Positions 3,353-26,727 of a stretch of 35,003 nucleotides of DNA are shown here, piece by piece. Position 1 is the first letter of the stretch. Every line of letters starts with the position of its first letter. The stretch lies in IMG/VR virus record IMGVR_UViG_3300002483_002005, positions 2,367 to 37,369 of that record, one strand, 5' to 3'. The translations under genes and the position numbers were made by a program. Source of the DNA: a virus. The notes under the pieces are model-generated. The model saw only the letters and a program-made list of their open reading frames with translations, was not told the DNA's origin and searched no databases.

Positions 3353-3358
3353 GAGGTT

Positions 3359-3387: not shown

Positions 3388-3456
3388 TGGCTTTTCACGA
3401 TATTCCTTGACCGTGATATAATTATCACTATACCATTAACATCGTATACGATGAAT

Positions 3457-4464: not shown

Positions 4465-4504
4465 TAGTATTTATTATAGCTCGTATTCCTCTTTTTCATG
4501 TACC

Positions 4505-4533
4505 ATTCTATACTATTCTTTCGCAAATGTAAA
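4505..4533 (-). promoter_or_regulatory. Early-type promoter upstream of the endolysin operon
   Basis: TTTACA, 17 nt, TAGAAT on the minus strand, matching the other copies in the window. It faces away from the plus-strand late promoter at 4573, so this interval is a divergent control region. Confidence 0.75.
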
Positions 4534-4572
4534 GGAAAAAGTTTTGTTTGTTTTCAATAAGATACGTTTTTT

Positions 4573-4580
4573 TATAAATA
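4573..4580 (+). promoter_or_regulatory. T4-type late promoter, plus strand
   Basis: Exact TATAAATA 20 bp before the ATG of the plus-strand gene at 4600, with GAAGGGAAA as ribosome binding site between them. Confidence 0.8.
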
Positions 4581-4599
4581 GTTACGAAGGGAAACTGCT

Positions 4600-5082
4600 A
4601 TGATAGATCCAATAAGCGCGATCGGAATGGCGACAGCCGCGTATAATGGCATTAAAAAAGCTGTTAGTACGGGTAAAGAGTTGCATGATATGGCGGGTAC
4701 GCTGCAGAAATGGGCTACATCTATGTCTGACTTAGATTTTGCTCATAAGCAGGCTCAGAATCCTCCAATGTTTAAAAAAATGTTTGGCGCAAGTCAAATA
4801 GAACAAAACGCATTAGAAGTATGGGGCCATAAGCAAAAGGCTAAAGAAATGCGTGAGGAAATGAAAACACATATTAGTTTTTATTATGGACCATCTGCTT
4901 GGGATGAGATTGTTCGTATAGAAGGTGATATGAGAAAGAAACGTAAAGAAGCTGTGTATGCAGCCGAAGAGCGTAAACAGTTAATATTAGAATGGTTAGT
5001 AGGAATCATTGTAGGTGCGGCTGTTCTTGGCATCATGATTTTAATAATCTGGATTATAGGTTCAACACAAGGGAAATGGTAA
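4600..5082 (+). CDS. Late tail-anchored membrane protein of unknown function, 160 aa
   Basis: One of only two plus-strand genes in the window, behind an exact late promoter and a strong ribosome binding site. Residues of about 1-125 are soluble, helical and charged (KKAVSTGKELHDMAGTLQKW, HKQKAKEMREEMKTHI, MRKKRKEAVYAAEERKQ). Residues of about 130-152 are a strong TM helix (WLVGIIVGAAVLGIMILIIWII) near the C-terminus, leaving a short GSTQGKW tail. Such a tail-anchored, coiled-coil layout could belong to a lysis-control or virion protein, but I do not recognise a family. The next gene starts immediately after its stop (TAAATG), so the two form a unit. Confidence 0.75.
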   Translation: MIDPISAIGMATAAYNGIKKAVSTGKELHDMAGTLQKWATSMSDLDFAHKQAQNPPMFKKMFGASQIEQNALEVWGHKQKAKEMREEMKTHISFYYGPSAWDEIVRIEGDMRKKRKEAVYAAEERKQLILEWLVGIIVGAAVLGIMILIIWIIGSTQGKW

Positions 5083-5262
5083 ATGTGGGTATTGCTATGG
5101 GTACAGTTAATGGCAACACAAAATGTAAATCACTTTCATATTGGTAATTATTCAAAAGAAGTAGACTGCCAGTCGGCTATGAGTGCCGCTGCTGTTTTAG
5201 TTACTAGTAAAAATGAAAGCGTTGCTTGCTTGTACGTAGATATTAATGACATTAGAAATTAG
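5083..5262 (+). CDS. Small late exported protein, 59 aa
   Basis: ATG directly follows the stop of the tail-anchored gene (TAAATG), so it is probably translated by reinitiation. The N-terminus (MWVLLWVQLMATQ) is hydrophobic and looks like a short signal sequence. The remainder has two Cys (VDCQSAM, VACLYVD) that could pair in the periplasm. It ends by overlapping the convergent methyltransferase gene by 4 bp, and no terminator is visible between them. Family unknown. Confidence 0.6.
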   Translation: MWVLLWVQLMATQNVNHFHIGNYSKEVDCQSAMSAAAVLVTSKNESVACLYVDINDIRN

Positions 5263-6446
5263 ATAAAAGCTTCCAAAGTATTAGGAGCCTTTTCAATATT
5301 GTATGATCGAGTCTTGTTATCTTGCAAGACATACTCTGCTTCGATCATTTGCAAGTCACCACCTAAAAATCTTTTTACATTTTCTGCCATGTCCATTGCT
5401 GTCGTAACAGGCACGTTCTGACATATCATATTTAAGTTCTTTAGTCCTCCTTGTAATATAAAGTCTTTTGGCATCTTCATTATATCCAATGCTTCGCGAG
5501 TATTGATATAACGATCTTCATCGGGGTGGCATAAGGTATGAGGGAAGTGACCAACGAAAGCACCAATACGATCTTTTCCTATCTCAGTCATCTTTCTCAT
5601 TATATTTCCACCAGCCGATAACTTATCAAACATATAGTTACACTTCTCAGAAAGCTTCTGGTGACCCCTTTCTGCCATCCAAACGCCCACATCCTTATAA
5701 GATACACCTTTATCTTCAATATAGTGTAAAGGATTAGTTGTCTTTTCAATTAGTTGAAAGAACTCAGGATGAGTAATTCCACCATGCATTTCTTCTAGTA
5801 CGTATTGATAGTAAGGATTGTCCGAAGGTTTCTGTTTGCTATTCACCTGTTCAAACATTGGATCTGGTTCGTTTGTAGCAGATGAACGAATCTGATCTTC
5901 GATCTTAGTGTATGGTCGATTGTAATACGATAAGATTGGTACAGAGTTTCCTTTCCAAAAGAAATAGAATGATCTATCTCTAACCTGGCTTAATCCGTGG
6001 AGGATTGATTTGGTTTTGTAGATGGAGAAGACGTAACCGTTTCTTCTTCCGATTTCTCTAAGTTTTGCCACAACTGGTTCTCCCATTCGACTAGCGAGCC
6101 GTGGAGCATTTTCACCCCAGAACACAGTTGGTTGGATGGATTCGAGCACATACTCGGCAGACTTGACCATCCAATCATTAGTATTACTATCACCGCTGCT
6201 AGTAGGACTAAGTGAAGAAAGCCCCGCACAAGGGCAGACAGTATTGACCACATCCACTCTGCTAGGAGCAGTGTCCCCTTTATCAAGCAGTAGATAAGGA
6301 ATATTATTATTATAATAGTTAAGAAGTTGGCTATCATTTGCTGTAAAATCCGTGTAAGAGAGGATGTATTCGGGTCGTTTCCCGAATACGTTTTCCATTG
6401 CTATTGTTTCACCTCCTATGAGAGGAACAATACTTGCATAATTCAT
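5259..6446 (-). CDS. C5-cytosine DNA methyltransferase, 395 aa
   Basis: Transfers a methyl group from SAM to C5 of cytosine in DNA. The motif order is complete: a degenerate motif I (IVPLIGG near residue 6), motif IV CPCAGLS with the catalytic Cys (PCQGFS in most relatives), motif VI GENAP in place of ENV, motif VIII QVRDRSFYF, and motif IX/X near the end (NTREALDIMKMPKDF, CQNVPVTTAMDMAENV). A start at the ATG at 6446 overlaps the epimerase stop (TAATG) with AAGGTGAA upstream. It is the last gene of the modification operon. The divergent motifs I, IV and VI leave specificity and even activity open, and its role in a phage predicted to carry hydroxymethylcytosine is unclear. Confidence 0.78.
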   Translation of the reverse strand: MNYASIVPLIGGETIAMENVFGKRPEYILSYTDFTANDSQLLNYYNNNIPYLLLDKGDTAPSRVDVVNTVCPCAGLSSLSPTSSGDSNTNDWMVKSAEYVLESIQPTVFWGENAPRLASRMGEPVVAKLREIGRRNGYVFSIYKTKSILHGLSQVRDRSFYFFWKGNSVPILSYYNRPYTKIEDQIRSSATNEPDPMFEQVNSKQKPSDNPYYQYVLEEMHGGITHPEFFQLIEKTTNPLHYIEDKGVSYKDVGVWMAERGHQKLSEKCNYMFDKLSAGGNIMRKMTEIGKDRIGAFVGHFPHTLCHPDEDRYINTREALDIMKMPKDFILQGGLKNLNMICQNVPVTTAMDMAENVKRFLGGDLQMIEAEYVLQDNKTRSYNIEKAPNTLEAFI

Positions 6447-7399
6447 TAATTCACCTTGTAATAATCTTTGTACCAAGTGACAAATTTTTCCACGCCATCA
6501 GCAATAGGTGTTGTTGGATTATAACCTAATTTCTGGAGTTTAGTCGTATCTGACCATGTGGCTGGAGTATCTGCCGGATGTGCTTCACAAGGATTACGTA
6601 TTGCTGTGCGACCAAGGTTCTTTTCAATATGATCTACAAAATCAAGTAACTCTACTTGTTGTCCATATCCGATATTATATATCTCATGATAACTATCACT
6701 ATCTGTGACAACTTTATCTATCACTAGGCTTATGCCATGAACAATATCTTCAACGTAAGTAAAGTCACGTTTCATATCACCAAAGTTATATAAGTCAATT
6801 GGTTTACCTTTTATAATATTATCAGTAAACTTAAACAGCGCCATGTCAGGTCTTCCATAAGGACCATACACAGTAAAGAATCGTAAGCCAGCGGTACGTT
6901 TAATTTTTGAATGACCAAACTGACATTCGTTTACTTTTTTAGACCAGCCATAAGGGTTGTTTTGATTTTCAGGTTTATCAACTTCATTCCAAGGTAACGG
7001 CTGTCCATGCATTACACATGATGATGAAGCATATACTACAGGAATATTGAGTCCTTCGACTTCCAATGCTTCGACGATACGCTGTGTACCAGTAATGTTT
7101 GTGTCAATATAGTGCTGTGGTTCGTCCATAGCGTGACGTGGATTTGCATATGCTGCAAGGTGTAAGACTACGTCCACGTCATCAAATAATTTCTTATCAG
7201 GATGAATGTCTTGAATATCGAGTTGTAACGTATCAACTCCATAGTCTTCTCTTAATATTCTTGCTCTTTCTCTTTTTAGTTCTACATCGTAGTAGTCATT
7301 AAAATTATCTACTCCTACTACTTGGTGTCCTCTTGCTGCATAGTATATTGCAGAGTGGAAGCCTATCATGCCGGCTTGGCCTGTGATAAATATTTTCAT
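6446..7399 (-). CDS. UDP-glucuronate 4-epimerase-like NAD-dependent epimerase, 317 aa
   Basis: An extended short-chain dehydrogenase fold with the NAD motif GQAGMIGFHS (residues 7-16; the usual first Gly-x-x-Gly pattern is kept) and VVGVDNFNDYYDVELKRER, a stretch typical of UDP-glucuronate 4-epimerases. The catalytic set is YASSSCVMHG (Ser) and a YGWSK motif (Tyr, Lys). It would convert UDP-glucuronate to UDP-galacturonate. The matching UDP-glucose dehydrogenase is encoded at 17898-18701, so the phage appears to carry both steps. The start overlaps the glucosyltransferase stop by 4 bp. Whether the product goes to the host surface or to phage DNA is unknown. Confidence 0.82.
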   Translation of the reverse strand: MKIFITGQAGMIGFHSAIYYAARGHQVVGVDNFNDYYDVELKRERARILREDYGVDTLQLDIQDIHPDKKLFDDVDVVLHLAAYANPRHAMDEPQHYIDTNITGTQRIVEALEVEGLNIPVVYASSSCVMHGQPLPWNEVDKPENQNNPYGWSKKVNECQFGHSKIKRTAGLRFFTVYGPYGRPDMALFKFTDNIIKGKPIDLYNFGDMKRDFTYVEDIVHGISLVIDKVVTDSDSYHEIYNIGYGQQVELLDFVDHIEKNLGRTAIRNPCEAHPADTPATWSDTTKLQKLGYNPTTPIADGVEKFVTWYKDYYKVN

Positions 7400-8643
7400 A
7401 CGAAAAATTCCTCGAGTCCTTGTGGTTGGTTGCTAGTAGTGTTCAAAGCGAGATCGATAATTTCTTTCACAACCATTTCTCCATCGGAGTGTTGCTTCCA
7501 AAATTCAAACGCCATCTCTCTCCAATCATCTCTCATCGCAGGATCATTTTTAAGTTTGACCATTTGGTCGCGGCACTCATTAAAGTTAGTATAGTCAACG
7601 CCTAGAGTGCCAGAGTTTTGACATTGACTAATTGGTTTACCTTGTACAGGATGAATTACATTATCACAAAAGTGTTTGTGAAATAACGGTACTGTACCTG
7701 AAGCTATACATTCGGCGTGGCAATTTTCTATATTGTTACCATAGTGTTCTGCTTTTAAAAAGTATAAGTCAGAACCAAATGCTGACCGTGACATACGATC
7801 CATAGCTTCTGAGTTTATATATTGTGGATAAAGGTATGCACCTTTGCCTTCAACTTCTTTGCCATACAAATCAGGTGTAAACTTAACTTCATTAAATTGT
7901 TTCTCAGGTCTGAAATGATTTTCTACAATTCTACGATCTGTAGGATTGTCTGATTTATTATCACGATATAAGACTAAAGGATATTGTATAGAAGCTTCTA
8001 GTCCTTCCAACACAGTGATAAATCCTTGTTCCATCAAAGCATCTTGATGGAAGTCAATCATAACACTTGGTCCTTTCCACATAGCAGTACGGCCAATCCA
8101 TCTTACCATGTTGTGTTGTTGTTCTTCAATAGGACGCCAGTACTTTGCACGGTGTCCATCATAATCAAAGCCAAGTCCCATCTTTGTAAGTGGAGTTTCA
8201 ATCTTGTTTTTTCTCATAAACTTACAGAAATCATTTTCCATACTATGAGTCATAATAACATCTACATTTTCGCATACTTCTTTTAAGTTAGCATTACGTG
8301 CAATGGATGCTGCTTTATGATCTACGTTAATAAACGCTTTACGAATATTAATATGTTTAAGAAACGGAATAAAATTATCCTGGCATTCTTGAGGATGACT
8401 CTTTGAAGGTACTGAATATATGATACACAAATCAAAATATTCATTAATCCAATTGGCATTTATCTCCCATTCATTTGCCATTGAGAATTCTTTTTGCTTT
8501 ATATCTAATCCTTTGGCTCTACCCCATTTTTTATCAGTAGCAGATAAGATATGAGCACCCGTTACTTTTTGCATTTGTATTGCACACTGTGTAACACCGC
8601 AACCTTCAGTGCCGCGACCAAGGACAATTGCAATTCTAGTCAT
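7396..8643 (-). CDS. agt: DNA alpha-glucosyltransferase, T4 AGT homologue, 415 aa
   Basis: Aligned from memory to T4 AGT along the protein: RGTEGCGVTQ near the N-terminus matches RGLEGCGVT, INVDHKAASIARN matches the H-D-H region, and MVRWIGRTAMWKG (residues 179-191) with VLEGLEAS matches the INRWIGRTTTWKG and VMEGLERS segments. Length is near T4's 400. T4 AGT moves glucose from UDP-glucose to 5-hydroxymethylcytosine in DNA, protecting it from nucleases. I start at the ATG at 8643 with TAAGGAATT upstream, 8 bp overlapping the previous gene. A predicted dCMP hydroxymethylase lies 1.5 kb upstream in the same operon, which supports the role. Confidence 0.85.
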   Translation of the reverse strand: MTRIAIVLGRGTEGCGVTQCAIQMQKVTGAHILSATDKKWGRAKGLDIKQKEFSMANEWEINANWINEYFDLCIIYSVPSKSHPQECQDNFIPFLKHINIRKAFINVDHKAASIARNANLKEVCENVDVIMTHSMENDFCKFMRKNKIETPLTKMGLGFDYDGHRAKYWRPIEEQQHNMVRWIGRTAMWKGPSVMIDFHQDALMEQGFITVLEGLEASIQYPLVLYRDNKSDNPTDRRIVENHFRPEKQFNEVKFTPDLYGKEVEGKGAYLYPQYINSEAMDRMSRSAFGSDLYFLKAEHYGNNIENCHAECIASGTVPLFHKHFCDNVIHPVQGKPISQCQNSGTLGVDYTNFNECRDQMVKLKNDPAMRDDWREMAFEFWKQHSDGEMVVKEIIDLALNTTSNQPQGLEEFFV

Positions 8644-9019
8644 TAATAAATTCCTTACATTCAATTAAAACATTATGTACGTATTTATGATCGTTTAACT
8701 TACGATTTCTAGGGGAAGGATGTGGTAAGACAAAGTGATCTTCGAAACCAAGACGTTTCAAATAGCTCGATACCATTGAACCCCATACAACTATCTTATC
8801 ATAGTTTTTAAGACTTGTACATAATAAAGTGTGATCAAAAGTCTTAAATTTAAAATCCCATTCAGGATCAAATGATAAGTTAGTGAAGGAGACATGTGTG
8901 AGGTCCAGTTGATCTAACCAGCTATGAAATCTTTTGTACGCAGATCCCTTTGCCTTACTCACTGCTACCTTTGAAGGATTCATTCCAACAAAGATAATTC
9001 TAGACCGAAACGAATTCAT
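8636..9019 (-). CDS. Uracil-DNA-glycosylase-superfamily protein, 127 aa
   Basis: IIFVGMNPSK near the N-terminus matches the G-x-NP loop of family 4/5-like uracil-DNA glycosylases. IVVWGSMVSSYL and LPHPSPRNRK near residue 107 match the late HPSPRN motif. It is short for an active family 4 enzyme (about 190-210 aa), so it may be a minimal relative. In a base-modification operon it could remove uracil or deaminated modified cytosine, or act as a modified-base binder; this is inference. I start at the ATG at 9019; a TTG start 21 bases upstream is possible. Confidence 0.65.
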   Translation of the reverse strand: MNSFRSRIIFVGMNPSKVAVSKAKGSAYKRFHSWLDQLDLTHVSFTNLSFDPEWDFKFKTFDHTLLCTSLKNYDKIVVWGSMVSSYLKRLGFEDHFVLPHPSPRNRKLNDHKYVHNVLIECKEFIND

Positions 9020-9467
9020 ATTCAATTCCAGCTTCTTCAAACATAGCTGAAGTTAAAGCAAATGATTCAACCCAATGCTCAGGTATTTCCTGATTAGGCA
9101 TAACCACACGTTTAACACCAACTTGAATTACGCCTTTAGCGCAATCAGAACAAACAGGTAAACCCCACACGTATAATGTAGATCCATCAAGTGATACACC
9201 ATTATATGTAGCGTTGTATATTACATTCTGTTCTGCATGAACAACATACCTGTACTTAATTTTCTTGACAGCGTATCTATTCAAATCATCTTTTATACCA
9301 CGAGGAAAGCCATTGTATCCTTGAGCAAGTACCTGCCCTTTCTTTCCTATAGCAACAGCACCAATCTTAGATGACGGGTCCTTTGACCAAGTGCTTACTT
9401 CCTTTGCTAATCCTAGGTATCTTATATCCCATTTATTTGACAAGGTGAAAGTGCCTTTCATATACAT
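9000..9467 (-). CDS. dCMP deaminase, 155 aa
   Basis: A cytidine/deoxycytidylate deaminase fold: VVHAEQN carries the zinc His and the catalytic Glu, and GLPVCSDCAK carries the two zinc Cys. SKDPSSKIGAVAIG and GYNGFPRGI are also typical of dCMP deaminases. It converts dCMP to dUMP, the substrate of the ThyX at 13483. It overlaps the hydroxymethylase gene by 35 bp. Both enzymes draw on dCMP, so together they set the split between modified cytosine and thymine. ATGs at 9467 and 9461 are both possible starts, neither with a strong ribosome binding site. Confidence 0.88.
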   Translation of the reverse strand: MYMKGTFTLSNKWDIRYLGLAKEVSTWSKDPSSKIGAVAIGKKGQVLAQGYNGFPRGIKDDLNRYAVKKIKYRYVVHAEQNVIYNATYNGVSLDGSTLYVWGLPVCSDCAKGVIQVGVKRVVMPNQEIPEHWVESFALTSAMFEEAGIEYEFVSV

Positions 9468-10119
9468 GCAAGTTTTGTACTTGCCACATAATCATACCGG
9501 GTTGAAGTCCTTCATAGCTGTGGGCATGTCGATCAATTCTGTTTATGTTATCACATAGCAATGAGAGTACATGCATTTGCCAGGCATAATCATTCTTATA
9601 ACCAAACACTACATCATTCGAACGCATTTGAACTACAGCGTTAAGTACATCATCACGAATGTAATAGCTCACAGCGTTTGTACATATGAAATCATTCTTT
9701 TCGTTTTCATTGTATTCTAGCCAGACAGAAGGACGATTGTATACCATTGTAGCTCTACGTCCATCAGGATTTTCAATTAACTCATCAAGGACATGACCAT
9801 ACTGTTGGTGGTACTTATCAGACCAGATAAGATGACCATAGTTTGAATTAATTTCACCGTGTTTATTTGCTGCGTATTGCCAAGCTTGTGGAACACTTTC
9901 ACCAATATCATTTACGTTTGTGGATTGACTTTCATACCAATCTAATTCTTCTTGAATATAATCATAGTTTGGCGAACCAAAGATAGCAGGCTCATCAGCA
10001 ACAAACGATGCACCAATCAGTTCAATAGTTTTTTGACCGGTTCTATCGATTGTAAATGCTTCATCATTGAGTTCACCAATAAAGAACTGGCGAATATCAT
10101 GTACACTATGTAGTTTCAT
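9433..10119 (-). CDS. 42: dCMP hydroxymethylase (ThyA family, T4 gp42-like), 228 aa
   Basis: A thymidylate synthase fold: INSNYGHLIW, NPDGRRATMVYNRPS (Arg121-122), FICTNAVSYYIRDD with catalytic Cys146, and QMRSNDVVFGYKNDYAWQ. The key residue is Asp177 in KNDYA, at the place of the Asn that thymidylate synthases use to recognise dUMP. T4 hydroxymethylase has Asp179 there and Cys148, giving dCMP specificity. The predicted reaction is dCMP plus methylenetetrahydrofolate to 5-hydroxymethyl-dCMP. ThyX elsewhere in the window covers dTMP, consistent with this protein not being a thymidylate synthase. It overlaps the DUF1599 gene by 14 bp. Confidence 0.83.
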   Translation of the reverse strand: MKLHSVHDIRQFFIGELNDEAFTIDRTGQKTIELIGASFVADEPAIFGSPNYDYIQEELDWYESQSTNVNDIGESVPQAWQYAANKHGEINSNYGHLIWSDKYHQQYGHVLDELIENPDGRRATMVYNRPSVWLEYNENEKNDFICTNAVSYYIRDDVLNAVVQMRSNDVVFGYKNDYAWQMHVLSLLCDNINRIDRHAHSYEGLQPGMIMWQVQNLHVYERHFHLVK

Positions 10120-11592: not shown

Positions 11593-12066
11593 TTAGAATT
11601 TTGTTAAGAATTGTGCTATTCTTCCTACAAATGGTAACAGCATAAGTGCCATCATAAGATTCATACCAGTATGTGCCATAGCTATTCGTAAGGTATCACC
11701 TTTTGGCCAGCCATCAGATACAAAGATACCGGCTAACCATATGGTTCCAGTAGTTCCAATGTTAGCTCCTAACACAGCAGCAACTGCGGCTGGTAGCGGT
11801 AAGGCGCCTGAAGCAACTAACGCAATGATTGCAGTAGTTGATAATGAAGACGATTGCCACAAGAGTGTCATTACTATTCCACCAATAAACATGTATATCG
11901 GATTACCTAAAAAGAATTGTAAGTGGTCCATGTTACCCATTGACTTCATACCACCTGAGAATGTTTTAAGTCCAATGTAAAATATTACTAAGCCAACTAA
12001 AGCAGTTATTACGGGATTTCCTAGATCCATTTTCTTTACCTTCTTCCAAAGTTTTTTATTCGACAT
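11593..12066 (-). CDS. Half-size Na/phosphate cotransporter (NptA-like), 157 aa
   Basis: Inner-membrane protein with about four hydrophobic segments. Residues 71-79, QSSSLSTTA, are the QSSS motif of the PNaS (Na/Pi cotransporter) family, followed by ASGALPLPAAVAAVLGANIGTTGT, which is also typical. Bacterial members usually have two inverted QSSS repeats and over 300 residues; here only one repeat is present. It might act as a dimer or modify the host carrier, which is inference. It follows the MazG-like gene with one base between stop and start and shares its promoter. Phosphate acquisition genes are common cargo of marine phages. Confidence 0.78.
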   Translation of the reverse strand: MSNKKLWKKVKKMDLGNPVITALVGLVIFYIGLKTFSGGMKSMGNMDHLQFFLGNPIYMFIGGIVMTLLWQSSSLSTTAIIALVASGALPLPAAVAAVLGANIGTTGTIWLAGIFVSDGWPKGDTLRIAMAHTGMNLMMALMLLPFVGRIAQFLTKF

Positions 12067-12505: not shown

Positions 12506-12534
12506 ATTATATCACCTTTTGCATAGTAAGTAAA
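12506..12534 (-). promoter_or_regulatory. Early-type promoter inside the 3' end of the GAPDH gene
   Basis: TTTACT, 17 nt, TATAAT on the minus strand. It overlaps the last codons of GAPDH and reads into the MazG-like and NptA-like genes. It has the best -10 of the set. Confidence 0.8.
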
Positions 12535-13493
12535 CCTTTCATGTAGTTTGCAACATCAGCCATTCTACAACTAAATGCCCATTCGTTATCATACCAGGCT
12601 AATACTCTAACTAAATTATTATTTGATACTCGTGTTTGTTCTGGTGCAAAAATACAACTTTCTTTTGTTGTATTAAAATCACTGCTTACGAGTGGCAATG
12701 GCTCGTAGCCAATAATGCCAGACATATCATTACGTGTGCTTTCATATACATGTTTATTAACAATGCTTTCAGTAACTTGTTCTTTAACTTGTACTGTTAA
12801 ATCAATGCAACTTACATTTGGCGTAGGTACTCTTATTGCTCCGCCCATTATTTTACCATTGACAGGAGGATAAACTTCTCCTAGTGCCTTTGTTGCTCCT
12901 GTGCTTGTTGGAATCATATTGACAGCACCTGCTCTTGCTCTATAAGGATCTTTGTGCCTTTTATCTATAGTGCTTTGGTCTCCGGTGTAACTATGTATTG
13001 TTGTCATTTGTCCTGCTACAATACCACAGGTTTCATCTAATATTTTAACAAGTGGCGCTAAACAGTTTGTTGTACAACTTGCATTGCTAACAACGTGTTC
13101 GTGCTTCTGTATGTCATTATGGTTCACACCATATACTACTGTGCGTTTACATTCTTTAGCAGGCGCACTTATGACAACTTTCTTTGCTCCATTTATTGTA
13201 TGATGCATGCATTCAACACCGTTATTGTAAGCACCCGTACATTCTAATACAACATCAACATTATGCCACTTTAGTTTTTTTATATCTCTTTCTTCTGTCC
13301 ATACCAAAGGTTCATGTATAGGACCTGTGTAACGCCCATGCACACTATCATACTTTAACAAGTGAAGGTTTACTTCTTCTCCACCTGAAGCATTGATTTG
13401 AACTACATTCATATCATTACGTTGGCTCATTATGTGTCTTGCAACACAACGTCCTATACGACCGAAGCCATTGATACCTATATTAAGTTTCAT
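12507..13493 (-). CDS. gap: Glyceraldehyde-3-phosphate dehydrogenase, 328 aa
   Basis: Full-length class I GAPDH. NAD site GINGFGRIGR (residues 6-15), catalytic Cys140 in SNASCTTNC, partner His167 in HSYTGDQ, the phosphate-site stretch STGATKALGEVYP, and WYDNEWAFSCRM near the C-terminus. It interconverts glyceraldehyde 3-phosphate and 1,3-bisphosphoglycerate. The cofactor loop reads INASGGEEVN where NAD enzymes usually have an Asp, so NADP or mixed use is possible. It overlaps ThyX by 11 bp and so belongs to the replication-side transcript. All key residues are intact, so it is probably active. This is an unusual cargo gene for a phage. Confidence 0.9.
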   Translation of the reverse strand: MKLNIGINGFGRIGRCVARHIMSQRNDMNVVQINASGGEEVNLHLLKYDSVHGRYTGPIHEPLVWTEERDIKKLKWHNVDVVLECTGAYNNGVECMHHTINGAKKVVISAPAKECKRTVVYGVNHNDIQKHEHVVSNASCTTNCLAPLVKILDETCGIVAGQMTTIHSYTGDQSTIDKRHKDPYRARAGAVNMIPTSTGATKALGEVYPPVNGKIMGGAIRVPTPNVSCIDLTVQVKEQVTESIVNKHVYESTRNDMSGIIGYEPLPLVSSDFNTTKESCIFAPEQTRVSNNNLVRVLAWYDNEWAFSCRMADVANYMKGLLTMQKVI

Positions 13494-14163
13494 TTATTTT
13501 TGGATATATTGCGCTAATTGCTTTAGCTATTACTGTGGCCAGTTCCATATGTTCTTTTTGTGTCCCGTTTGCAGAACGTAACTCGATATAATGAATCCAG
13601 CTACGAATGGTGCCATTAACATAAAGCTTAGAAACTGTGTTCCCTTCTGGCAAGATTGCTCTTGCCTGTTCTTTTGCGATTCCTCGTTCGAGTGCTTCAT
13701 TGTAGATCCTCTTTACATGTTCGATTACAAACTTTTGTTGAGCATCCCACCAAGCTTCAAGTGCTGGATCGGTTGCTTCAATACTATTCTGACGATTCTT
13801 TTCGTCCTGTAGTCGTGCTTCTCTTAAAACAAAATCATTATTAAGATCATTGATGCTAGCATACCGCTGAGAAAACTCTTGAAATGAAAACGATCTGTGC
13901 CTGAGGAACTGCCTTGCGATGTCTCTTGTCGTTGTGACTTCGACACAGCAGCTTGCCATTTCGAATGGTGACCAGTGCTTGTGCTTGATGAGGTAGTCAA
14001 GTAACTTTCTCGTTGTTTTGGTGTTAGCCTGGTTCGATGGATTGGAGACACGGGCGCAATACGCGATGAGGTCTTGCGTGTTGTCGAGGCCCATGATACC
14101 GAGTTCACCGGAGTGTATGTGCCGAACAGGTTGTGAGTATGAGATGAGACGTGCATGCGTCAA
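13483..14163 (-). CDS. thyX: Flavin-dependent thymidylate synthase ThyX, 226 aa
   Basis: The ThyX signature RHRSFSFQEFSQR spans residues 88-100 (RHR-x7-S-x-R). ILPEGNTVSKLYVNGTIRSWIHYIELR matches the conserved C-terminal helix region. It makes dTMP from dUMP using FAD, NADPH and methylenetetrahydrofolate. It pairs with the dCMP deaminase at 9000. The start is a TTG at 14163 forming TTGA with the previous stop: the residues right after it (ARLISYSQ) match the family's N-terminus, and the next ATG in frame is at codon 24. Its first 300 bases are more GC-rich than the surroundings. Confidence 0.92.
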   Translation of the reverse strand: MTHARLISYSQPVRHIHSGELGIMGLDNTQDLIAYCARVSNPSNQANTKTTRKLLDYLIKHKHWSPFEMASCCVEVTTTRDIARQFLRHRSFSFQEFSQRYASINDLNNDFVLREARLQDEKNRQNSIEATDPALEAWWDAQQKFVIEHVKRIYNEALERGIAKEQARAILPEGNTVSKLYVNGTIRSWIHYIELRSANGTQKEHMELATVIAKAISAIYPKINET

Positions 14164-16868: not shown

Positions 16869-17914
16869 TATTCTGCCTCAACAATAGTATCTGGATCTAC
16901 CAGTGCTTTATGACCAATTGAATACTGCTTCTTAATAAACTCGCTGAACGCTGTTGTTTCAAAGATAGGATCCCAAAACTCTTTTTCTAGAGTTTGATCA
17001 TATCGTACTTTACCAAACTCTTGGCCATCAGGACCATTAGCTTGTTGATACCAACCAGCCGAAGGTTTAGTAACATATCCACCAGCAAGAGCTACGTCAA
17101 GAAGACCGCTGTAACTTTGAACTCCACCTTCCCAAGATACGGAGATAGGAATCTTTGATTTTTCTTTTACATAACGAGACTTATCAACATTAATTACAAA
17201 GTCATAGCCTGTAATCTCTGTACCCTTTTTATTTTGCCTACGTCCAATGATCCAAATGTTATCGGCTGAGTAGTAGATACCTGTTCCACCACCTACGATA
17301 TCTTTTGGAAATAATCCTATTTCTTTATAAGTATGATTAACTGCTATTAAAGGAATATCCTTCATAGTCAAGTAAGGTGTTACCATACGGAACAAACCTT
17401 TGAGTGCTTTTGCTCTTGACATATCAGCCACAGACTTTTCATTCAATGCATCTTCAAGTTCTTTCTTCGATGCAAGGTTACCAATACTATCAATAACAAT
17501 AACAACTCGATCATTGCGATCAAGTTCTTCGAGTTGACCAACAAGATCAAACTTTAGTTCTTCTACATTTGCAATAGGTGTATGCAATACACGCTGTACA
17601 TCAATATCAAATTGTTCAAAGTAAGATTGTGGTGAACCAAACTCAGAATCATAAAATAGCATGACTGCATCAGGATACTTTTTCATGTATGCGCTAGCCA
17701 TGAGTAAACCAAAAGAAGTCTTAAAGTGTTTTGACGGACCAGCCAATACTGTAAGGCCTGGAGTTAACCCACCGTCAACTGAACCAGATAAAGCAACGTT
17801 TACCATTGGTACATCTGTTGGAACCATATCTTTTTCAGTAAAGAACTTTGATTCGCCAAGAACTTCGGTAGACTTAATCTTCGAGTTCTTTTTTAATTTA
17901 TCCATAATTGACAT
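16868..17914 (-). CDS. uvsX: UvsX RecA-like recombinase, 348 aa
   Basis: The phage RecA homologue that pairs single-stranded DNA with duplex during recombination-dependent replication. Walker A GPSKHFKT (residues 59-66), then LFYDSEFGSPQSYFEQF, Walker B VVIVIDSIGNL, and the L1/L2 region with AVNHTYKEIGLFPKDIVGGGTGIYYSADN, which matches T4-type UvsX more closely than bacterial RecA. Length is near T4's 391, slightly short at the C-terminus. It overlaps the sugar dehydrogenase gene at its start. Confidence 0.92.
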   Translation of the reverse strand: MSIMDKLKKNSKIKSTEVLGESKFFTEKDMVPTDVPMVNVALSGSVDGGLTPGLTVLAGPSKHFKTSFGLLMASAYMKKYPDAVMLFYDSEFGSPQSYFEQFDIDVQRVLHTPIANVEELKFDLVGQLEELDRNDRVVIVIDSIGNLASKKELEDALNEKSVADMSRAKALKGLFRMVTPYLTMKDIPLIAVNHTYKEIGLFPKDIVGGGTGIYYSADNIWIIGRRQNKKGTEITGYDFVINVDKSRYVKEKSKIPISVSWEGGVQSYSGLLDVALAGGYVTKPSAGWYQQANGPDGQEFGKVRYDQTLEKEFWDPIFETTAFSEFIKKQYSIGHKALVDPDTIVEAE

Positions 17915-18701
17915 TTTGTTCTCTTTCTCTATCGTCTAATTCGTAACATTTGCGATACTCATTGTTTATTCTAATACATTTTTCAATAATTGTAAACCCC
18001 TTATCGAAATTTACTAGAGCTGCAGTGTCCTTTGGAAAGCATGCGCCACCATATCCTTGCTTACCATCTGGCCCAGGAACTTTAGTATGCGAATGTCCAA
18101 TACGTGAATCAGTACCAATAGCTTTTACGACCTTATTAAATGTTTGTCCTTGACGAGCAATTGAATCATATAACTGATTGAAGAATGTAACCTTTAATGC
18201 TAAGAAAGAATTTATGCCATACTTTACAAAGCTGGCTTCTTTCGGAGTCATCTTATATACAGGACATGGTGTACATAGGCTATACTCATCATAAATCTTT
18301 TCTAAGAAATTAGTGTTTACTTCGTTTCCACCAAAGACATGAAACTCTGGACGAATAAAATCTTCGTTAGCAGCTTTTTCTGTAAGAAACTCTGGATTGT
18401 AAATGAGATTATATTTTTCAAACTTATCAAAGAAAGTAGGAACGACGGTTGACTTTATTACGATAGGAATATTAGGACCAAGCGCAAGAACAACTTCAGT
18501 TAAAATAGAATCGTCAATAGATCCATCTTCACCAAACGGCGTAGGCACACAAACAAATGCAACACTGTACTTTGTAATATCAAGTTCATGTACACTATTT
18601 CCATACTTTGGATCTACAATATACTTTTGTAACTTAGGATGATTAAATCCATAGTCTACAGCTTTACCAACAAACCCATGGCCTACAATTATCATCTTCA
18701 T
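17898..18701 (-). CDS. Short UDP-glucose/GDP-mannose dehydrogenase, 267 aa
   Basis: I chose the ATG at 18701 because MKMIIVGHGFVGKAV is the NAD-binding start of the family; the reading frame upstream overlaps another gene. NAD motif GHGFVG (7-12), NPEFLTEKAA and the Lys of NSFLALK (164-170) in the active site, catalytic Cys221 in GYGGACFPKD. Usual members have about 390-440 residues with a C-terminal UDP-binding domain; here the protein stops soon after the central domain, so substrate choice and activity are uncertain. The likely reaction is UDP-glucose to UDP-glucuronate, feeding the epimerase at 6446. Confidence 0.85.
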   Translation of the reverse strand: MKMIIVGHGFVGKAVDYGFNHPKLQKYIVDPKYGNSVHELDITKYSVAFVCVPTPFGEDGSIDDSILTEVVLALGPNIPIVIKSTVVPTFFDKFEKYNLIYNPEFLTEKAANEDFIRPEFHVFGGNEVNTNFLEKIYDEYSLCTPCPVYKMTPKEASFVKYGINSFLALKVTFFNQLYDSIARQGQTFNKVVKAIGTDSRIGHSHTKVPGPDGKQGYGGACFPKDTAALVNFDKGFTIIEKCIRINNEYRKCYELDDREREQNVNYG

Positions 18702-18702
18702 A

Positions 18703-19131
18703 TTACGCCCCTTCATTTTGTGCCACTCGTCTACGTAGATCACTACTACTAAATCTATGTTCACGCTTATTAAAATATAAACGAATACCTTTACGACGAC
18801 ATACTTCTTTACCAGTAAAATCTTTGTTCTTGTATTCTTCACCCATGATTTTTACATTTATGTCAAACATTTCTAATATGTCAATCACGTCATTTTCACC
18901 TTGATAACAAACTATCTCATCAACGTATTTTACACCAGCCAATTGAACATAACGTTCTACCAATGTTTGTACTGGTGCATTCTTATCATCTCTGTCAAGA
19001 GAAGGATCTACCTGTAGACCACATATAAGATAATCACAAATAGTTTTAGCTTCACGTAACATTGCTACATGACCAGCATGTAATAAATCAAATGTAGATA
19101 ATGTTAAGCCAATTGTTTTAGTAGATTCCAT
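18703..19131 (-). CDS. Cytidylyltransferase-like nucleotidyltransferase, 142 aa
   Basis: TFDLLHAGHVAML near the N-terminus is the H-x-G-H nucleotide-binding motif of the TagD / RfaE-C family, and HRFSSSDLRRRV near the C-terminus resembles its ISSS-x-IR motif. Length fits glycerol-3-phosphate cytidylyltransferase (about 130-145). It joins a CMP or AMP to a phosphorylated alcohol or sugar; the substrate cannot be told from the sequence. I start at the ATG at 19131, with GGAAG upstream, rather than at 19143. It sits in the sugar cassette between the HAD protein and the dehydrogenase. Confidence 0.78.
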   Translation of the reverse strand: MESTKTIGLTLSTFDLLHAGHVAMLREAKTICDYLICGLQVDPSLDRDDKNAPVQTLVERYVQLAGVKYVDEIVCYQGENDVIDILEMFDINVKIMGEEYKNKDFTGKEVCRRKGIRLYFNKREHRFSSSDLRRRVAQNEGA

Positions 19132-19808
19132 GTTTCTTCCCATGTTTTAACTTGATGTACGCCTTGTCCAGCTGAGGCAAGAGCCCAAGATAGTTTATAG
19201 TCATTGCCACCCGGTTCCATTTTGTCACCAAAGAATTCAATACGATCATTTTCTAAATCAAAGTCACGTGTTATTTGTGACTTGTCACAGCCAGGTAATG
19301 TAATATCGATTCCAGTATCACCTGCAACTTCAAATAATATATGTGGGTATCTTTCTTGCATTGTAGTTGCAATCTGTACGCGTTCACTTTGATGATAATC
19401 CCATTCTTTGTACATAGCTCTTTCTTCAAGCGTATTGTTTCTTCCTAGGATACTAAAGTTTACAAGACCAGGACGTTGATCAAAATGCATACCAGTTTTG
19501 CAGGGAAACTTTGATTTGAGTATATAATCTCTTAGATCAAACTCTACGTCTAAAGGTAGTGCAAAAATTCCAGAATGCAAGTTCTTATCCTGTCGCCAAA
19601 CATCGTTTCCTGAACAATTATAAACCTTTTCACATAGATTGTAAATAGTAGATCCTATTTGTTCTAATGTTTTTTTCCTATCTGAACCAGTAACTAGATA
19701 GCACGTATTGTTCGTAGCAAAATCCTCGAACCATTTTGCAAATACAGAATCTATTTTCATTCTGCTTTCTGTTAAAGTACCATCCACATCAAATATAAAC
19801 TTACGCAT
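19104..19808 (-). CDS. HAD-family protein of the eukaryotic-type phosphomannomutase group, 234 aa
   Basis: FIFDVDGTLT at the start gives the HAD nucleophile Asp7 and Asp9. VTGSDRKKTLEQIG, YNCSGNDVW, FDQRPGLVNFSILGR, and FFGDKMEPGGNDYKL follow the order seen in PMM-type HADs, including the R-x-G-x-x-N-x-S-x-x-GR substrate loop and FFGDK-x-x-PGGND. It may interconvert hexose 6- and 1-phosphates or act as a phosphatase, including the dephosphorylation of KDO-8-phosphate that the KdsA/KdsB route needs. I start at the ATG at 19808, 8 bp overlapping the cupin gene. Confidence 0.78.
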   Translation of the reverse strand: MRKFIFDVDGTLTESRMKIDSVFAKWFEDFATNNTCYLVTGSDRKKTLEQIGSTIYNLCEKVYNCSGNDVWRQDKNLHSGIFALPLDVEFDLRDYILKSKFPCKTGMHFDQRPGLVNFSILGRNNTLEERAMYKEWDYHQSERVQIATTMQERYPHILFEVAGDTGIDITLPGCDKSQITRDFDLENDRIEFFGDKMEPGGNDYKLSWALASAGQGVHQVKTWEETWNLLKQLA

Positions 19809-20142
19809 AACCAACTGTCTCTCTCTGTATATCGTTATGATTAAACTCTGCCCAATACAATTCAAAGGCAACACCATCTTTTAAACATTCAAATTGATGA
19901 TAAACACCGGGCTTGACTTTTGTGTATTCACCTGGTTCTAGTATTGTTTCATCAACCAAGTCATAATCATTTTGCCATACACGAATAAGCATACGACCAG
20001 ACTCAACATAGAATCCATTCCATTTAAACTCGTGTAGATGTTTGGAGCAAACACCACCTTTATTCATTTCAATTCTATGAAACTCAAGAACACCATTCAT
20101 TTCAATCTGTTCTGTAAGTCCCCATACTTTACCTGCTTTCAT
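19801..20142 (-). CDS. Cupin, mannose-6-phosphate isomerase type II-like domain, 113 aa
   Basis: A single small cupin barrel: KVWGLTEQIE, then CSKHLHEFKWNGFYVESGRMLI with the metal-binding His pair, and EPGEYTKVKPGVYHQFE with the second His. This resembles the C-terminal isomerase domain of ManC-type proteins. I start at the ATG at 20142 with AAGGAA just before it; one at 20157 is possible. With the PMM-like protein next to it, it hints at a mannose-phosphate step in the cassette; a non-enzymatic sugar-binding role is possible. Confidence 0.72.
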   Translation of the reverse strand: MKAGKVWGLTEQIEMNGVLEFHRIEMNKGGVCSKHLHEFKWNGFYVESGRMLIRVWQNDYDLVDETILEPGEYTKVKPGVYHQFECLKDGVAFELYWAEFNHNDIQRETVGYA

Positions 20143-20800
20143 GCCATTTCCTTGCATCTTCTGGAGTGTTAATTTCTATTCCATTCCATTCTACACTAGT
20201 TACGCCGATTTGTACACCATTTTTTAACCATCGTAGTTGTTCTAGTTGTTCGATCTCTTCTTCTTTTTCTATTGGAAGTCTTGGATACAACTCTAACATA
20301 TTTCTTTTATAACCATATACACCTAGGTGCCAATCTCCGTATCCTGTTATGCCTCTCCCAAACCAAAGTGCTTGATCTCCAGCTCTAATCATTTTTACTG
20401 AGTGAGGATCATTCTGCTTATCTTTTGGCATAGGTGTCCATACGGTTGTCACCTCATAATTTTTTAAATGCCAATGAACATTGTTTATTATTTCTGGTGT
20501 AACGTCTGGCATGTCACCTTGTACATTTATATATTGATCATAGTCTAGTTTTTCTAAGGCAGCTCCAGCACACCGCTCGGTTCCATTACTGAATTCTCTG
20601 TTGTCATATATCACGTGCTTGAGTGGAACTGCATGTGCAACAGATCTATGATCAGTGAGTACATACGTATCAAATCCAGACTTAACGCAAGCATCGTAAA
20701 CTCTACGAATCATTGTCGTTCCACCAAGATTACATATAGGCTTACCTGGAAATCTACTTGATTCGTATCGAGCAGGAATTAATATCGCTGTGGTCGTCAA
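20129..20800 (-). CDS. kdsB: CMP-KDO synthetase KdsB, 223 aa
   Basis: ILIPARYESSRFPGKP at the N-terminus is the nucleotide-binding signature; SNGTERCAGA, INVQGDMPDV, HLGVYGYKRNML and EIEQLEQLRWLKNG follow in the order seen in E. coli KdsB. It activates KDO with CTP to CMP-KDO, the donor for inner-core LPS or capsule. About 25 residues shorter than E. coli KdsB. It begins at a TTG forming TTGA with the PEPCK stop; the protein homology begins right there and no ATG lies nearby. Confidence 0.88.
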   Translation of the reverse strand: MTTTAILIPARYESSRFPGKPICNLGGTTMIRRVYDACVKSGFDTYVLTDHRSVAHAVPLKHVIYDNREFSNGTERCAGAALEKLDYDQYINVQGDMPDVTPEIINNVHWHLKNYEVTTVWTPMPKDKQNDPHSVKMIRAGDQALWFGRGITGYGDWHLGVYGYKRNMLELYPRLPIEKEEEIEQLEQLRWLKNGVQIGVTSVEWNGIEINTPEDARKWHESR

Positions 20801-21981
20801 ATTAAACTCTCTAAAATTTCTAATACCTGTTTACTATTATCTTCTACACCAATGTCAATAGCACTCTTTACGCATGTTCTTGTAAAATCTAAGCTGAATC
20901 TGTTGCCGTTGCTATCCATCCCTGTGTTTATTAAATATACGTTACATACTTCATTCGTTATTTTATCCATAAGCAAATCACTATAAACTTTAACTGATCT
21001 TGGCATAAACGGTGATCCGTAACAAGGAGAGAATATTTTCTTTATCTCATCGCTGCCAGCTTCTGTTCCAGGCATTTGACTTGTGTAACCAGTTTCAAAG
21101 AAGCGTCTAACCGTATTACCACTTATTTTACTTACAGGTGGAAACCGACCTGTTGCATCCATAGTTAAGAAGAATATATTATCAGGATGACCGAACTGAT
21201 CCTGATCAGTCCAGGCATTGCTAACACAATCTATAGAATAACTTAATCTTGCGTTCGCAGCTCCAGGATTTTCTACTACAAGAGTATCTCGTTTCTTTGC
21301 TTCTTCAACAGCATTAAAAATAGTTGGGTGAGTCTCTTGAGTTAATCCTTCTGATTTAGCATAACAACCGGTTTCTATAATACGAATGCCTTTATCGTTC
21401 CATGACACTTCATCATCAGATATAAGACGAAACTCTGGATCACTACTTAACGTTGTTTTACCTGTGCCGCTTAATCCAAACATAAGGTTTGTTTTATCTT
21501 CATAAGTAAAAGCTGCACAATGCATAGGAAGAATGTTTTGATCTGGTAGTTCAAATCCTAAGATACTAAACACACCTTTTTTAATCTCACCAAGAAACGT
21601 AGTACCACCAATAAGCATTGTCTTTTCATCTAAGTGCACAGCAATAGTAGGTTGGCATTTTATTTCTGTATTATGAATGATAGTCCAGTCTGCGCAATGT
21701 TCGTACGGATTATCTACAACAGTAAACATATTACGTACAAACTGTGCATGTCTATCATCATTTGTTTCTACACGAAAACAAAAACCTGATGTATAGAAAA
21801 CAAGATTATGCTCTGTATCATACTCATTTATATCTTCAAAGAACTCCCAGTAATTGAGATCTTTACCGATCTTGTTATACTTAGGTCGTGTTAGATCTAA
21901 ATGCTTAGTTCTATTTCCAAAGTGTACTTTATTTTCAGGAGAACGACCGGTTGGTTCAGTTGTTATTTCTATATTGGGCAT
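20797..21981 (-). CDS. pckA: Compact ATP-type phosphoenolpyruvate carboxykinase, 394 aa
   Basis: Makes PEP from oxaloacetate and ATP. All main active-site elements of E. coli PckA are present: Arg13 in TGRSP, GEIKKG with Lys134-135, MHC with His154, the P-loop GLSGTGKTT (169-177), ISDDE with Asp189-190, GCYAKS, and Arg245 in NARLS. FLTMDATGRFPPVSKIS and INTGMDSNGNRFSL also match. At 394 residues it is about 130-140 shorter than bacterial PckA, lacking part of both ends. It overlaps KdsA by 26 bp upstream and KdsB by 4 bp downstream, which suggests the PEP is meant for KdsA (inference). Confidence 0.87.
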   Translation of the reverse strand: MPNIEITTEPTGRSPENKVHFGNRTKHLDLTRPKYNKIGKDLNYWEFFEDINEYDTEHNLVFYTSGFCFRVETNDDRHAQFVRNMFTVVDNPYEHCADWTIIHNTEIKCQPTIAVHLDEKTMLIGGTTFLGEIKKGVFSILGFELPDQNILPMHCAAFTYEDKTNLMFGLSGTGKTTLSSDPEFRLISDDEVSWNDKGIRIIETGCYAKSEGLTQETHPTIFNAVEEAKKRDTLVVENPGAANARLSYSIDCVSNAWTDQDQFGHPDNIFFLTMDATGRFPPVSKISGNTVRRFFETGYTSQMPGTEAGSDEIKKIFSPCYGSPFMPRSVKVYSDLLMDKITNEVCNVYLINTGMDSNGNRFSLDFTRTCVKSAIDIGVEDNSKQVLEILESLI

Positions 21982-22750
21982 AACTAAATTCCATTATGTT
22001 TTCTACTAAGTTGTCAAAATCAGAAAGCTTTAACATGTTTGGTCCATCAGATGGTGCACTGTCTGGATCTGCATGCACTTCTATAAAAAAGCTAGAAATG
22101 CCGAGAGCAGCACCAGCCCGAGCAAGATGAGGCACGTACTTGCGATTTCCACCAGTCGAGGTTCCTTGACTACCTGGTGTTTGTACTGAATGAGTAATAT
22201 CGTAAACAAATCTATCACCAAGATCAGCAAGTAAATCATACATGCCAGTGAAATCATTAACAAGACGTCCGTAACCAAAGCTTGTTCCTCTTTCTGTTAT
22301 CCAGACTTCTTCGGCTCTTTTAGTCTTAGATAATATTCCTTTTACGTCCCATGGTGCCATAAACTGGCCTTTTTTAATATTTATGATTTTTTCAGTTTTA
22401 CATGCTTCTACAATCAAATCAGTTTGCCTGCATAGGAAAGCTGGTATCTGTAATACATCAACAGCACTATTACTTCCTTGATAAGCTAAAGATCTAATTT
22501 GATCTACAGTATGAACATCTGTAAGAATCTTTAGACCCGATATCTCATTTTTAAGATCTATAAATGCATGATTAGTTGGATATAAACCCAATCCTCTTTC
22601 ACCATCTATCGATGTTCTATTAGCTTTATCAAAGCTAGCTTTAAAGAAATATTCCACACCATACTTATCGCAAACTTGTTTACAATGTTCTGCTATTTCT
22701 CCTGATCTGCCTATACTCTCATGTTGGCAGGGTCCTGCAATAATTCTCAT
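21956..22750 (-). CDS. kdsA: KDO-8-phosphate synthase KdsA, 264 aa
   Basis: Condenses PEP with arabinose 5-phosphate to KDO-8-phosphate. IAGPCQHES at the N-terminus carries Cys8, the residue found in metal-dependent KdsA types (Asn in the E. coli type). KASFDKANRTS (37-47), ITERGTSFGYGRLVNDF, DITHSVQTPGS and FIEVHADPDSAPSDGPNML complete the family pattern. It is about 20 residues shorter than E. coli KdsA. It begins one base before the previous gene's stop region ends, and overlaps PEPCK. All catalytic residues appear intact. Confidence 0.92.
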   Translation of the reverse strand: MRIIAGPCQHESIGRSGEIAEHCKQVCDKYGVEYFFKASFDKANRTSIDGERGLGLYPTNHAFIDLKNEISGLKILTDVHTVDQIRSLAYQGSNSAVDVLQIPAFLCRQTDLIVEACKTEKIINIKKGQFMAPWDVKGILSKTKRAEEVWITERGTSFGYGRLVNDFTGMYDLLADLGDRFVYDITHSVQTPGSQGTSTGGNRKYVPHLARAGAALGISSFFIEVHADPDSAPSDGPNMLKLSDFDNLVENIMEFSYAQYRNNN

Positions 22751-26295: not shown

Positions 26296-26727
26296 TTATA
26301 GTTCACTCAACAATGTTTTAAGTTTCTTTTTGCTTTTGCCTCTGACTTTTGCTTTGCTAACATCGTTCATTGGCACTTCACCGCCTTCAGCTACCATCAC
26401 TACTCCAAGCATACCCATTGTTGCGTGCGGTGTACAAACATACACATACACACCTGGTACATCGAAGGTAATGCTAACTTCTTTGTTGTTCTTACTTTTT
26501 CTTGGAATGTCCCATCCATCTGGTCCTGCAACAAATTCTACGTTGTGTCCTTTAGATGTTGGTACCCACGTGATTGTGTCACCTACGTCAATAGCGACAA
26601 CATCTTCGCTGTACACCATCTTAGCACCATCGTCACGTTTATTTAACATTTCGATTGTTACGTCTGCCGCGAATGCTGGAACAGACAATGAAGCCATAAC
26701 GGCTACTGTAGATAAAAGTTTCTTCAT
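26296..26727 (-). CDS. Pseudoazurin (periplasmic type 1 copper protein), 143 aa
   Basis: Signal peptide MKKLLSTVAVMASLSVPAFA (1-20), then a cupredoxin fold. Copper ligands are all present: His61 in SKGHNVEF, Cys98, His101 and Met106 in CTPHATMGM, the exact spacing of pseudoazurins. The start of the mature protein (MLNKRDDGAKMVYSEDVV) and the basic C-terminus (KAKVRGKSKKKL) also match. In alphaproteobacteria pseudoazurin carries electrons to copper nitrite reductase and N2O reductase, among other partners. It has its own terminator and a GGGGAATT ribosome binding site. Probably an auxiliary metabolic gene supporting periplasmic electron flow in the infected host. Confidence 0.92.
   Translation of the reverse strand: MKKLLSTVAVMASLSVPAFAADVTIEMLNKRDDGAKMVYSEDVVAIDVGDTITWVPTSKGHNVEFVAGPDGWDIPRKSKNNKEVSITFDVPGVYVYVCTPHATMGMLGVVMVAEGGEVPMNDVSKAKVRGKSKKKLKTLLSEL

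Follow-up and report, generated by a model that had tools for sequence, protein, structure and literature searches.

Phage genes of carbon metabolism are known mainly from cyanophages, in which talC, zwf, gnd and cp12 pull on the pentose phosphate pathway. Here, we describe a compact ATP-type phosphoenolpyruvate (PEP) carboxykinase (PEPCK, gene pckA) of 394 residues, which is encoded in a fragment of a marine T4-like phage. The analysed stretch of 35,003 nucleotides, hereafter the window, corresponds to bases 2367-37369 of the 37,369-base IMG/VR virus record IMGVR_UViG_3300002483_002005. Like the carbon genes of cyanophages and the auxiliary metabolic genes (AMGs) of ocean viruses for 5-phosphoribosyl 1-diphosphate (PRPP), the genes described below would redirect host carbon to pentose phosphates and nucleotides. 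Unlike these, they would enter from the side of the tricarboxylic acid (TCA) cycle at oxaloacetate and work in the gluconeogenic direction, via PEPCK and glyceraldehyde-3-phosphate dehydrogenase (GAPDH). We consider it probable that the compact PEPCK and a GAPDH probably using NADPH constitute a gluconeogenic module of marine T4-like phages, with the 3-deoxy-8-phosphooctulonate synthase KdsA as a further client for PEP.

Below the hexose level, commitment to gluconeogenesis depends on two enzymes, PEPCK and the NADPH-type GAPDH, which are connected by reversible steps. In Geobacillus, both genes, gapB and pckA, are repressed by CcpN, as reported earlier for Bacillus, and deletion of CcpN raised the amount of riboflavin, which needs ribulose-5-phosphate and GTP, 1.51-fold (PMC7936320). 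This common control may serve as a precedent for the pairing of the two enzymes. The phages resemble B. subtilis in having the same two enzymes and a GAPDH with the GapB-type INAS motif, while differing in that the two are linked in the genome.

Viral pckA genes are already in print. For trench-sediment viruses, the consulted part of PMC12448302 includes pckA in a KEGG-annotated list of putative viral AMGs with one sentence on gluconeogenesis; it thus shares a virus-encoded PEPCK with the phages studied here, but describes no compact phage family or gene module. The PEPCKs of the giant viruses Catovirus and Klosneuvirus are likewise virus-encoded, but comprise 480 and 788 residues. A complete PRPP pathway was reported in work on ocean-virus AMGs, the main text of which mentions neither gluconeogenesis nor a carboxykinase (PMC11360552). 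In the accessible text of PMC6359870, PMC11959909 and PMC12724203, the only mention of pckA is the repression of the host gene by lambda cI, and the corresponding text of two articles on phage effects on nucleotide supply (PMC4022391, PMC11981692) does not mention these enzymes. No published compact phage PEPCK and no gap-pckA or prs-gap-pckA row was found in the literature searched, which leaves out most subscription journals and preprints; within these sources, neither the compact phage family nor the gluconeogenic module was found in print. Among the named phages of INPHARED, no PEPCK relative exceeded 35% identity, the seven matches being mostly bacterial or unannotated records. For the neighbouring genes, Synechococcus phage S-SCSM2R also carries kdsA next to kdsB, but its KdsA is 38% identical and its record contains no PEPCK match.

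The compact PEPCK of the window

The four genes of the window on which the following considerations are based are:

20797..21981, minus strand: compact ATP-type PEPCK (pckA-like), 394 aa with an ATG start (PF01293, catalytic residues, AlphaFold2 model, dN/dS)
12507..13493, minus strand: type I GAPDH with NADP/GapB-like coenzyme motifs, 328 aa (TIGR01534, catalytic motifs, INAS motif)
21956..22750, minus strand: KdsA-like 3-deoxy-8-phosphooctulonate synthase, a PEP consumer (NF003543)
20129..20800, minus strand: KdsB-like CMP-sugar cytidylyltransferase (PF02348; under the NCBIfam kdsB cut-offs)

The PEPCK matched PF01293 (PEPCK_ATP) with 299.3 bits (E 6e-89, cut-off 26.5) as well as ATP-PEPCKs of the PDB. 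Since it reached only 266.4 bits against the PckA equivalog model TIGR00224 (cut-off 590), and likewise failed all PRK09344 cut-offs, it was filed as a divergent branch of the PF01293 superfamily and not as a PckA equivalog. The initial annotation had put it at 130-140 residues shorter than bacterial PckA; it is indeed shorter, but this figure is slightly low, since the difference to E. coli PckA (540 aa, 34% identity) amounts to 146 residues. Based on the alignment, trimming affects the N-terminus (about 50 residues), the C-terminus (about 57 residues) and several loops. The AlphaFold2 model (mean predicted local distance difference test score, pLDDT, 87.2; predicted template modelling score, pTM, 0.88) showed the ATP-PEPCK fold, with E. 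coli PCK as the best Foldseek match (TM-score 0.86 by query length). Thus, fold and catalytic residues are in common with the bacterial enzyme, whereas length, both termini and one tyrosine differ.

When 13 phage PEPCKs were aligned with E. coli PckA, identical residues were seen at 21 of the 24 compared active-site positions in all 13 phages, which bears out the earlier statement of intact active-site residues with one exception. R65, K212, K213, H232, the P-loop 248-255, D268/D269, Y286, K288, R333, R449 and T455 (E. coli numbering) are kept throughout; these include the P-loop, the DD motif, the Lys/His/Asp metal ligands and the Arg65/Arg333-type substrate arginines. The exception is Tyr207 near the substrate site, which is replaced by Phe in 13 of 13 phages; further changes are G208 to L/M and I450 to F/Y/H. 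Tyr207 of E. coli is an active-site residue that is not strictly defining for ATP-PEPCK, and a literature search on its role found nothing.

The shortening, the distance to TIGR00224 and the changes at positions 207 and 450 could also be explained by a protein without PEPCK activity, for example another P-loop kinase, or a protein that regulates the host enzyme or serves as its decoy. We regard this as very improbable. All compared metal, phosphate and substrate ligands are kept except Tyr207, the structure 6at3 of the E. coli Y207F enzyme, which is among the structural matches, has oxaloacetate bound according to its title, and in five alphaproteobacterial genomes no PEPCK other than the compact one was detected. 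Altogether, the protein appears to be an intact ATP-type enzyme, as far as can be judged from sequence and model.

Compact PEPCKs are encoded at 65 viral loci found in two IMG/VR scans, and the ratio of nonsynonymous to synonymous substitutions (dN/dS) among phage copies was 0.03-0.12 in the nine pairs computed, indicating strong purifying selection. Both observations show that the open reading frame (ORF) is more than a chance product.

Neighbours of the carboxykinase: GAPDH, prs and kdsA

The window also encodes a GAPDH, which had been missed in the initial annotation and the link of which to PEPCK is stronger than that of kdsA. It lies over the type I cut-off of TIGR01534 (376.2 vs 367.2 bits), and the alignment showed SNASCTTNC with the catalytic Cys and HSYTGDQ with the catalytic His. 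In the coenzyme site, Ala occupies the position of Asp32, and the INAS motif is shared with 8wwz (B. subtilis GapB) and with the homologue 4dib from Bacillus; NAD-type GAPDHs carry Asp32 at this place. A basic pair was found at the 187-188 site, at which the NADP-engineered B. stearothermophilus mutant has Ala-Ser, and the best structural match of the GAPDH model was 1dbv, the NADP-engineered mutant with Asp32 changed to Gly. Based on these motifs, the phage GAPDH probably uses NADPH. Since it remained under the cut-off of PRK07729 (NF005830; 352 vs 546 bits), the GapB model, it is called GapB-like by motif only, and overall it is nearer to the alphaproteobacterial type I GAPDH (Brucella 3doc) than to B. 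subtilis GapB. More distant viral GAPDHs with 38-46% identity occur at six loci (L251-L256) on contigs of 5-181 kb without a compact PEPCK.

A GAPDH family search covering 41 of the 66 PEPCK contigs (window included) detected GAPDH in 13, the window among them. Conversely, a scan with ten phage GAPDHs yielded 42 viral loci, with PEPCK in 17 of the 42 contigs. Together, PEPCK and GAPDH were found in 18 contigs including the window, which represent 13 lineages based on 95% clusters. The two genes are on one strand in 18 of 18 contigs and lie within 2.4 kb of each other in nine of the 13 lineages, in several gene orders; in G023, the distance is about 42 kb. In three lineages (L024/L025, L242 and L037-L039), the gap between gap and pckA is at most 8 nt, and in two of them (L024/L025 and L242, with Pfam identities for L024) prs, gap and pckA stand in a row. 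Within the flanks searched, which cover at most ~10 kb per side so that absence there is no proof, prs was found in 10 of the 18 contigs.

As controls, 47 marine T4-like contigs of 19-183 kb were chosen by RegA (21) or KdsA (26). PEPCK was present in one of the 47 and GAPDH in none; the first GAPDH search of the controls had no positive control of its own, and the repeat search used a family that matches in control genomes. With near-copies merged, GAPDH was present in 9 of 23 PEPCK lineages and in none of the 42 controls (Fisher p 2.6e-5); for PEPCK, the counts were 12 of 32 GAPDH lineages and 1 of 42 controls (p 9e-5). These tests assume independent lineages, which is not fully the case here.

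A search of these phages with 31 E. coli central-metabolism proteins gave matches only for pck, GAPDH (via epd), prs, kdsA and ugd. It showed no match for aldolase, phosphoglycerate kinase (PGK), triose-phosphate isomerase, enolase, transketolase or transaldolase, nor for PEP synthase, malate dehydrogenase or a TCA cycle enzyme.

In the window, coordinates and junction sequences show that the PEPCK gene shares 26 nt with kdsA and 4 nt with the KdsB-like ORF. The arrangement described initially was therefore correct, except that the second neighbour can be named KdsB-like only, since it fell under every NCBIfam kdsB cut-off (163.6 vs 193; 105.6 vs 155.2). KdsA itself passed NF003543 (313 vs 242), just failed TIGR01362 (300.5 vs 314) and failed PRK12457. 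Without counting the window, kdsA adjoins PEPCK, or is separated from it by kdsB only, in 17 of the 65 viral loci, in the orders kdsA-pckA, pckA-kdsA and kdsA-kdsB-pckA; the pair is thus recurrent in viral metagenomes and not unique to one genome. The close relatives L001 and L003 have no counterpart of the kdsB-like gene between pckA and the cupin gene, while L011 and L012 do, and this difference among very similar phages amounts to a recent gain or loss. At other loci, pckA lies amid replication genes; in L044, for instance, the ORFs next to it were read as clamp and clamp-loader-like.

This pairing had led to the proposal that the phage makes PEP to drive the synthesis of 3-deoxy-D-manno-octulosonate (KDO). 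A PEPCK dedicated to this purpose would feed KdsA and yield CMP-KDO for the envelope or for sugars of DNA or virion. The overlap in the window, the recurrence in several orders and the consumption of PEP by KdsA are in line with this, and a whole-contig KdsA search covering 50 of the 65 loci detected KdsA in 15 contigs, compared to 1 of 21 RegA-chosen ones. However, no KdsA was found in the remaining 35 contigs, four of which comprise 147-178 kb, and among the 26 long KdsA contigs that are not part of the PEPCK set, only 1 contains a PEPCK. With near-copies merged, the enrichment of KdsA is weak (8 of 27 lineages with PEPCK compared to 1 of 21 RegA-chosen contigs, p 0.058), and the E. coli protein search found no homologue of KdsD, the arabinose-5-phosphate isomerase, or of KdsC in these phages. 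The explanation by KDO only is weakened by the whole-contig search and by the control contigs, and we consider it rather unlikely. The observation behind the initial proposal is real and recurrent, and its interpretation is partly supported, being right for the kdsA pairing and too narrow for the PEPCK contigs without kdsA. The support for a gluconeogenic module that has KdsA among its clients is better than that for KDO alone. Apart from this, GAPDH also pairs with KDO genes, as seen in L225 and L226, which show the order cupin-GAPDH-kdsA-kdsB and no PEPCK on the stretch examined.

The PEPCK of the window lies in a phage-gene setting between the T4-like primase/DNA polymerase and UvsX, in keeping with a location expected of a phage AMG. 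The T4-like block on the minus strand has the order DNA polymerase, primase/helicase-like, KdsA, PEPCK, KdsB-like, cupin, HAD (haloacid dehalogenase)/phosphomannomutase-like, HldE-C-like, UDP-glucose dehydrogenase-like and UvsX, and the nearest named-phage relative of the polymerase is that of Phage C48C1 (Kyanoviridae, 54.5% identity). The further features are:

19801..20157, minus strand: cupin with a WbuC-like fold (PF07883)
19104..19877, minus strand: HAD-IIB/phosphomannomutase-like phosphatase (PF03332, phrog_29277)
18703..19143, minus strand: HldE-C-like nucleotidyltransferase (PF01467, phrog_7878)
17898..18842, minus strand: UDP-glucose dehydrogenase-like protein (PF00984/PF03721, phrog_9148)
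11593..12066, minus strand: half-length Na/Pi symporter-like protein near GAPDH (PF02690; NF037997 with 51.8 bits vs cut-off 50)

Phosphate transporter-like proteins recur near PEPCK or GAPDH, namely in the window (11593-12066), in L024 (65-895), in L021 and in L040, either as a Na/Pi symporter half or as a PHO4-like type under the cut-off. At 5259-10119, the window encodes C5-methylase-like, NAD-dependent epimerase, AGT-like DNA glucosyltransferase, UDG-like, dCMP deaminase and thymidylate-synthase/dCMP-hydroxymethylase-like proteins, and a glycosylated cytosine in the phage DNA would be possible. With the glucosyltransferase, the epimerase and the UDP-glucose dehydrogenase-like protein, the sugar genes might conceivably serve DNA glycosylation. 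The same phage encodes both a thymidylate-synthase-type protein (9433-10119) and ThyX (13483-14163). A plastocyanin/azurin-like copper protein with a signal-peptide-like start was found at 26296-26727.

A proposed gluconeogenic route and its direction

In the reading favoured here, the PEPCK would run in the gluconeogenic direction, converting oxaloacetate and ATP to PEP and CO2. The host would supply the reversible steps, from enolase to PGK, aldolase and transketolase, while the two steps that exert control, and that have to be driven "uphill" during growth on organic acids, would come from the phage. The resulting products would be PEP, triose phosphates and pentose phosphates and, where prs is present, PRPP for nucleotides. 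KdsA would draw on this route as a side branch, since it uses PEP together with a pentose phosphate, arabinose-5-phosphate, both of which belong to the route.

A number of observations weigh against this reading. The PEPCK reaction can run backwards, and Tyr207 is replaced in all phages aligned. No GAPDH was found in 28 of the 41 PEPCK contigs searched, three of them of 147-178 kb, so that PEPCK also travels without GAPDH, and no PEPCK was found in 25 of the 42 GAPDH contigs, many of which are fragments. In the window itself, 7.3 kb lie between PEPCK and GAPDH, and prs was not detected in the flanks searched (at most ~10 kb per side). Finally, the search with the 31 E. coli proteins revealed no fructose-1,6-bisphosphatase or other gene of upper gluconeogenesis.

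With regard to the direction, PEPCK working in reverse, from PEP, CO2 and ADP to oxaloacetate and ATP, could serve anaplerosis, the supply of aspartate and pyrimidines, or the formation of ATP. The reaction is reversible according to textbook knowledge, phages need pyrimidines, and the window contains the thymidylate-synthase-like protein, ThyX and dCMP deaminase. On the other hand, the neighbours GAPDH, prs and KdsA sit on the PEP-consuming, gluconeogenic side, and the GapB-like coenzyme motif of the GAPDH suits the uphill direction. We therefore judge a reverse operation to be unlikely and retain the gluconeogenic direction.

Cellular copies and origin of the compact form

A scan of a species-genome collection with the phage PEPCK alignment revealed seven cellular loci with the compact form. 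Two of these are contigs of metagenome-assembled genomes that also have a full-length PEPCK (ORFs of 549 and 551 aa), and on inspection these contigs look like phage DNA. The other five belong to alphaproteobacterial genomes, single-cell or similar, with sizes of 1.5-2.2 Mb (four catalogued as isolates, one as a metagenome-assembled genome), and no PEPCK besides the compact one was detected in them; the suggestion that it may be specific to phages does not hold. As a separate observation, the 335-kb contig L337, binned as Neomarinimicrobiota, carries alternative-oxidase-like and 5-aminolevulinate-synthase-like ORFs besides a compact PEPCK (ORF reading), and this bin may contain a large phage.

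In four of the five genomes (L338, L339, L340 and L343), the compact PEPCK stands divergently beside hprK-rapZ with etfAB upstream, in a conserved order (gene identities from Pfam), while the fifth contig starts at the compact PEPCK and shares its other flank with the four. This is probably a usual place for PEPCK, since hprK was also found within 1.5 kb of the full-length PEPCK in 4 of 19 alphaproteobacterial loci (L370, L372, L373 and L378). Within that alphaproteobacterial family, 118 of 120 genomes have a PEPCK, with the compact form only in the query genome. Of 385 genomes sampled from the class, 162 matched PEPCK, and again only the query genome showed the compact form among the matches listed.

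For the tree, 10 of 40 full-length sequences were used as outgroup, and the partial L006 and L062, the duplicate L364 and identical rows, among them one of the five single-cell genome rows, were left out; L007, L063, L064 and L067 are missing because their PEPCK gave no open frame of at least 240 aa. The cellular clade was placed next to phage L061, inside the phages (support 100/99, 98/93). The approximately unbiased (AU) test did not reject the phages as a separate clade (p 0.331), and the branch to the full-length outgroups is very long. A transfer from phage to host is favoured by the free tree, while the opposite direction is not rejected by the AU test. L061, the phage with the PEPCK nearest to the cellular copies, also encodes a B12-type ribonucleotide reductase (2865-5087).

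Another explanation of the distribution would be an ordinary enzyme of one alphaproteobacterial lineage, which was acquired once by phages and shuffled as cargo, with neighbours that have no functional meaning. The five single-cell genomes with the conserved chromosomal place in four of them, as well as the outcome of the AU test, would fit this assumption. In contrast, the cellular clade falls within the phages, beside L061 and L059, in the free tree, the compact form was found in just one of the 385 class genomes among the matches listed, namely the query itself, and the association with GAPDH exceeds that of the controls. Accordingly, mere cargo is in our view improbable as well.

Going beyond the gluconeogenic module as such, it is tentatively proposed that marine T4-like phages carry a dedicated route from gluconeogenesis to PRPP, densest in the prs-gap-pckA rows and built on a compact PEPCK of phage lineage, and that this PEPCK replaced the full-length enzyme at hprK-rapZ in a streamlined marine alphaproteobacterial lineage. 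We hold this combined proposal to be possible, with clearly less confidence than the module itself. If it is true, a viral gene now runs the gluconeogenesis of a host, and the sole detected PEPCK of some marine bacteria would be a test case for viral genes replacing core enzymes of the host. Furthermore, the PEPCK of 394 residues would define a smaller core for a classic enzyme.

For the phages, the observed combination of genes suggests that viruses push host carbon uphill into building blocks during infection, and the row of prs, gap and pckA makes the gluconeogenic reading directly testable. If this reading is correct, phages of heterotrophs would obtain the ribose for their nucleotides from the opposite end compared to cyanophages, by forcing gluconeogenesis from the acids of the TCA cycle.

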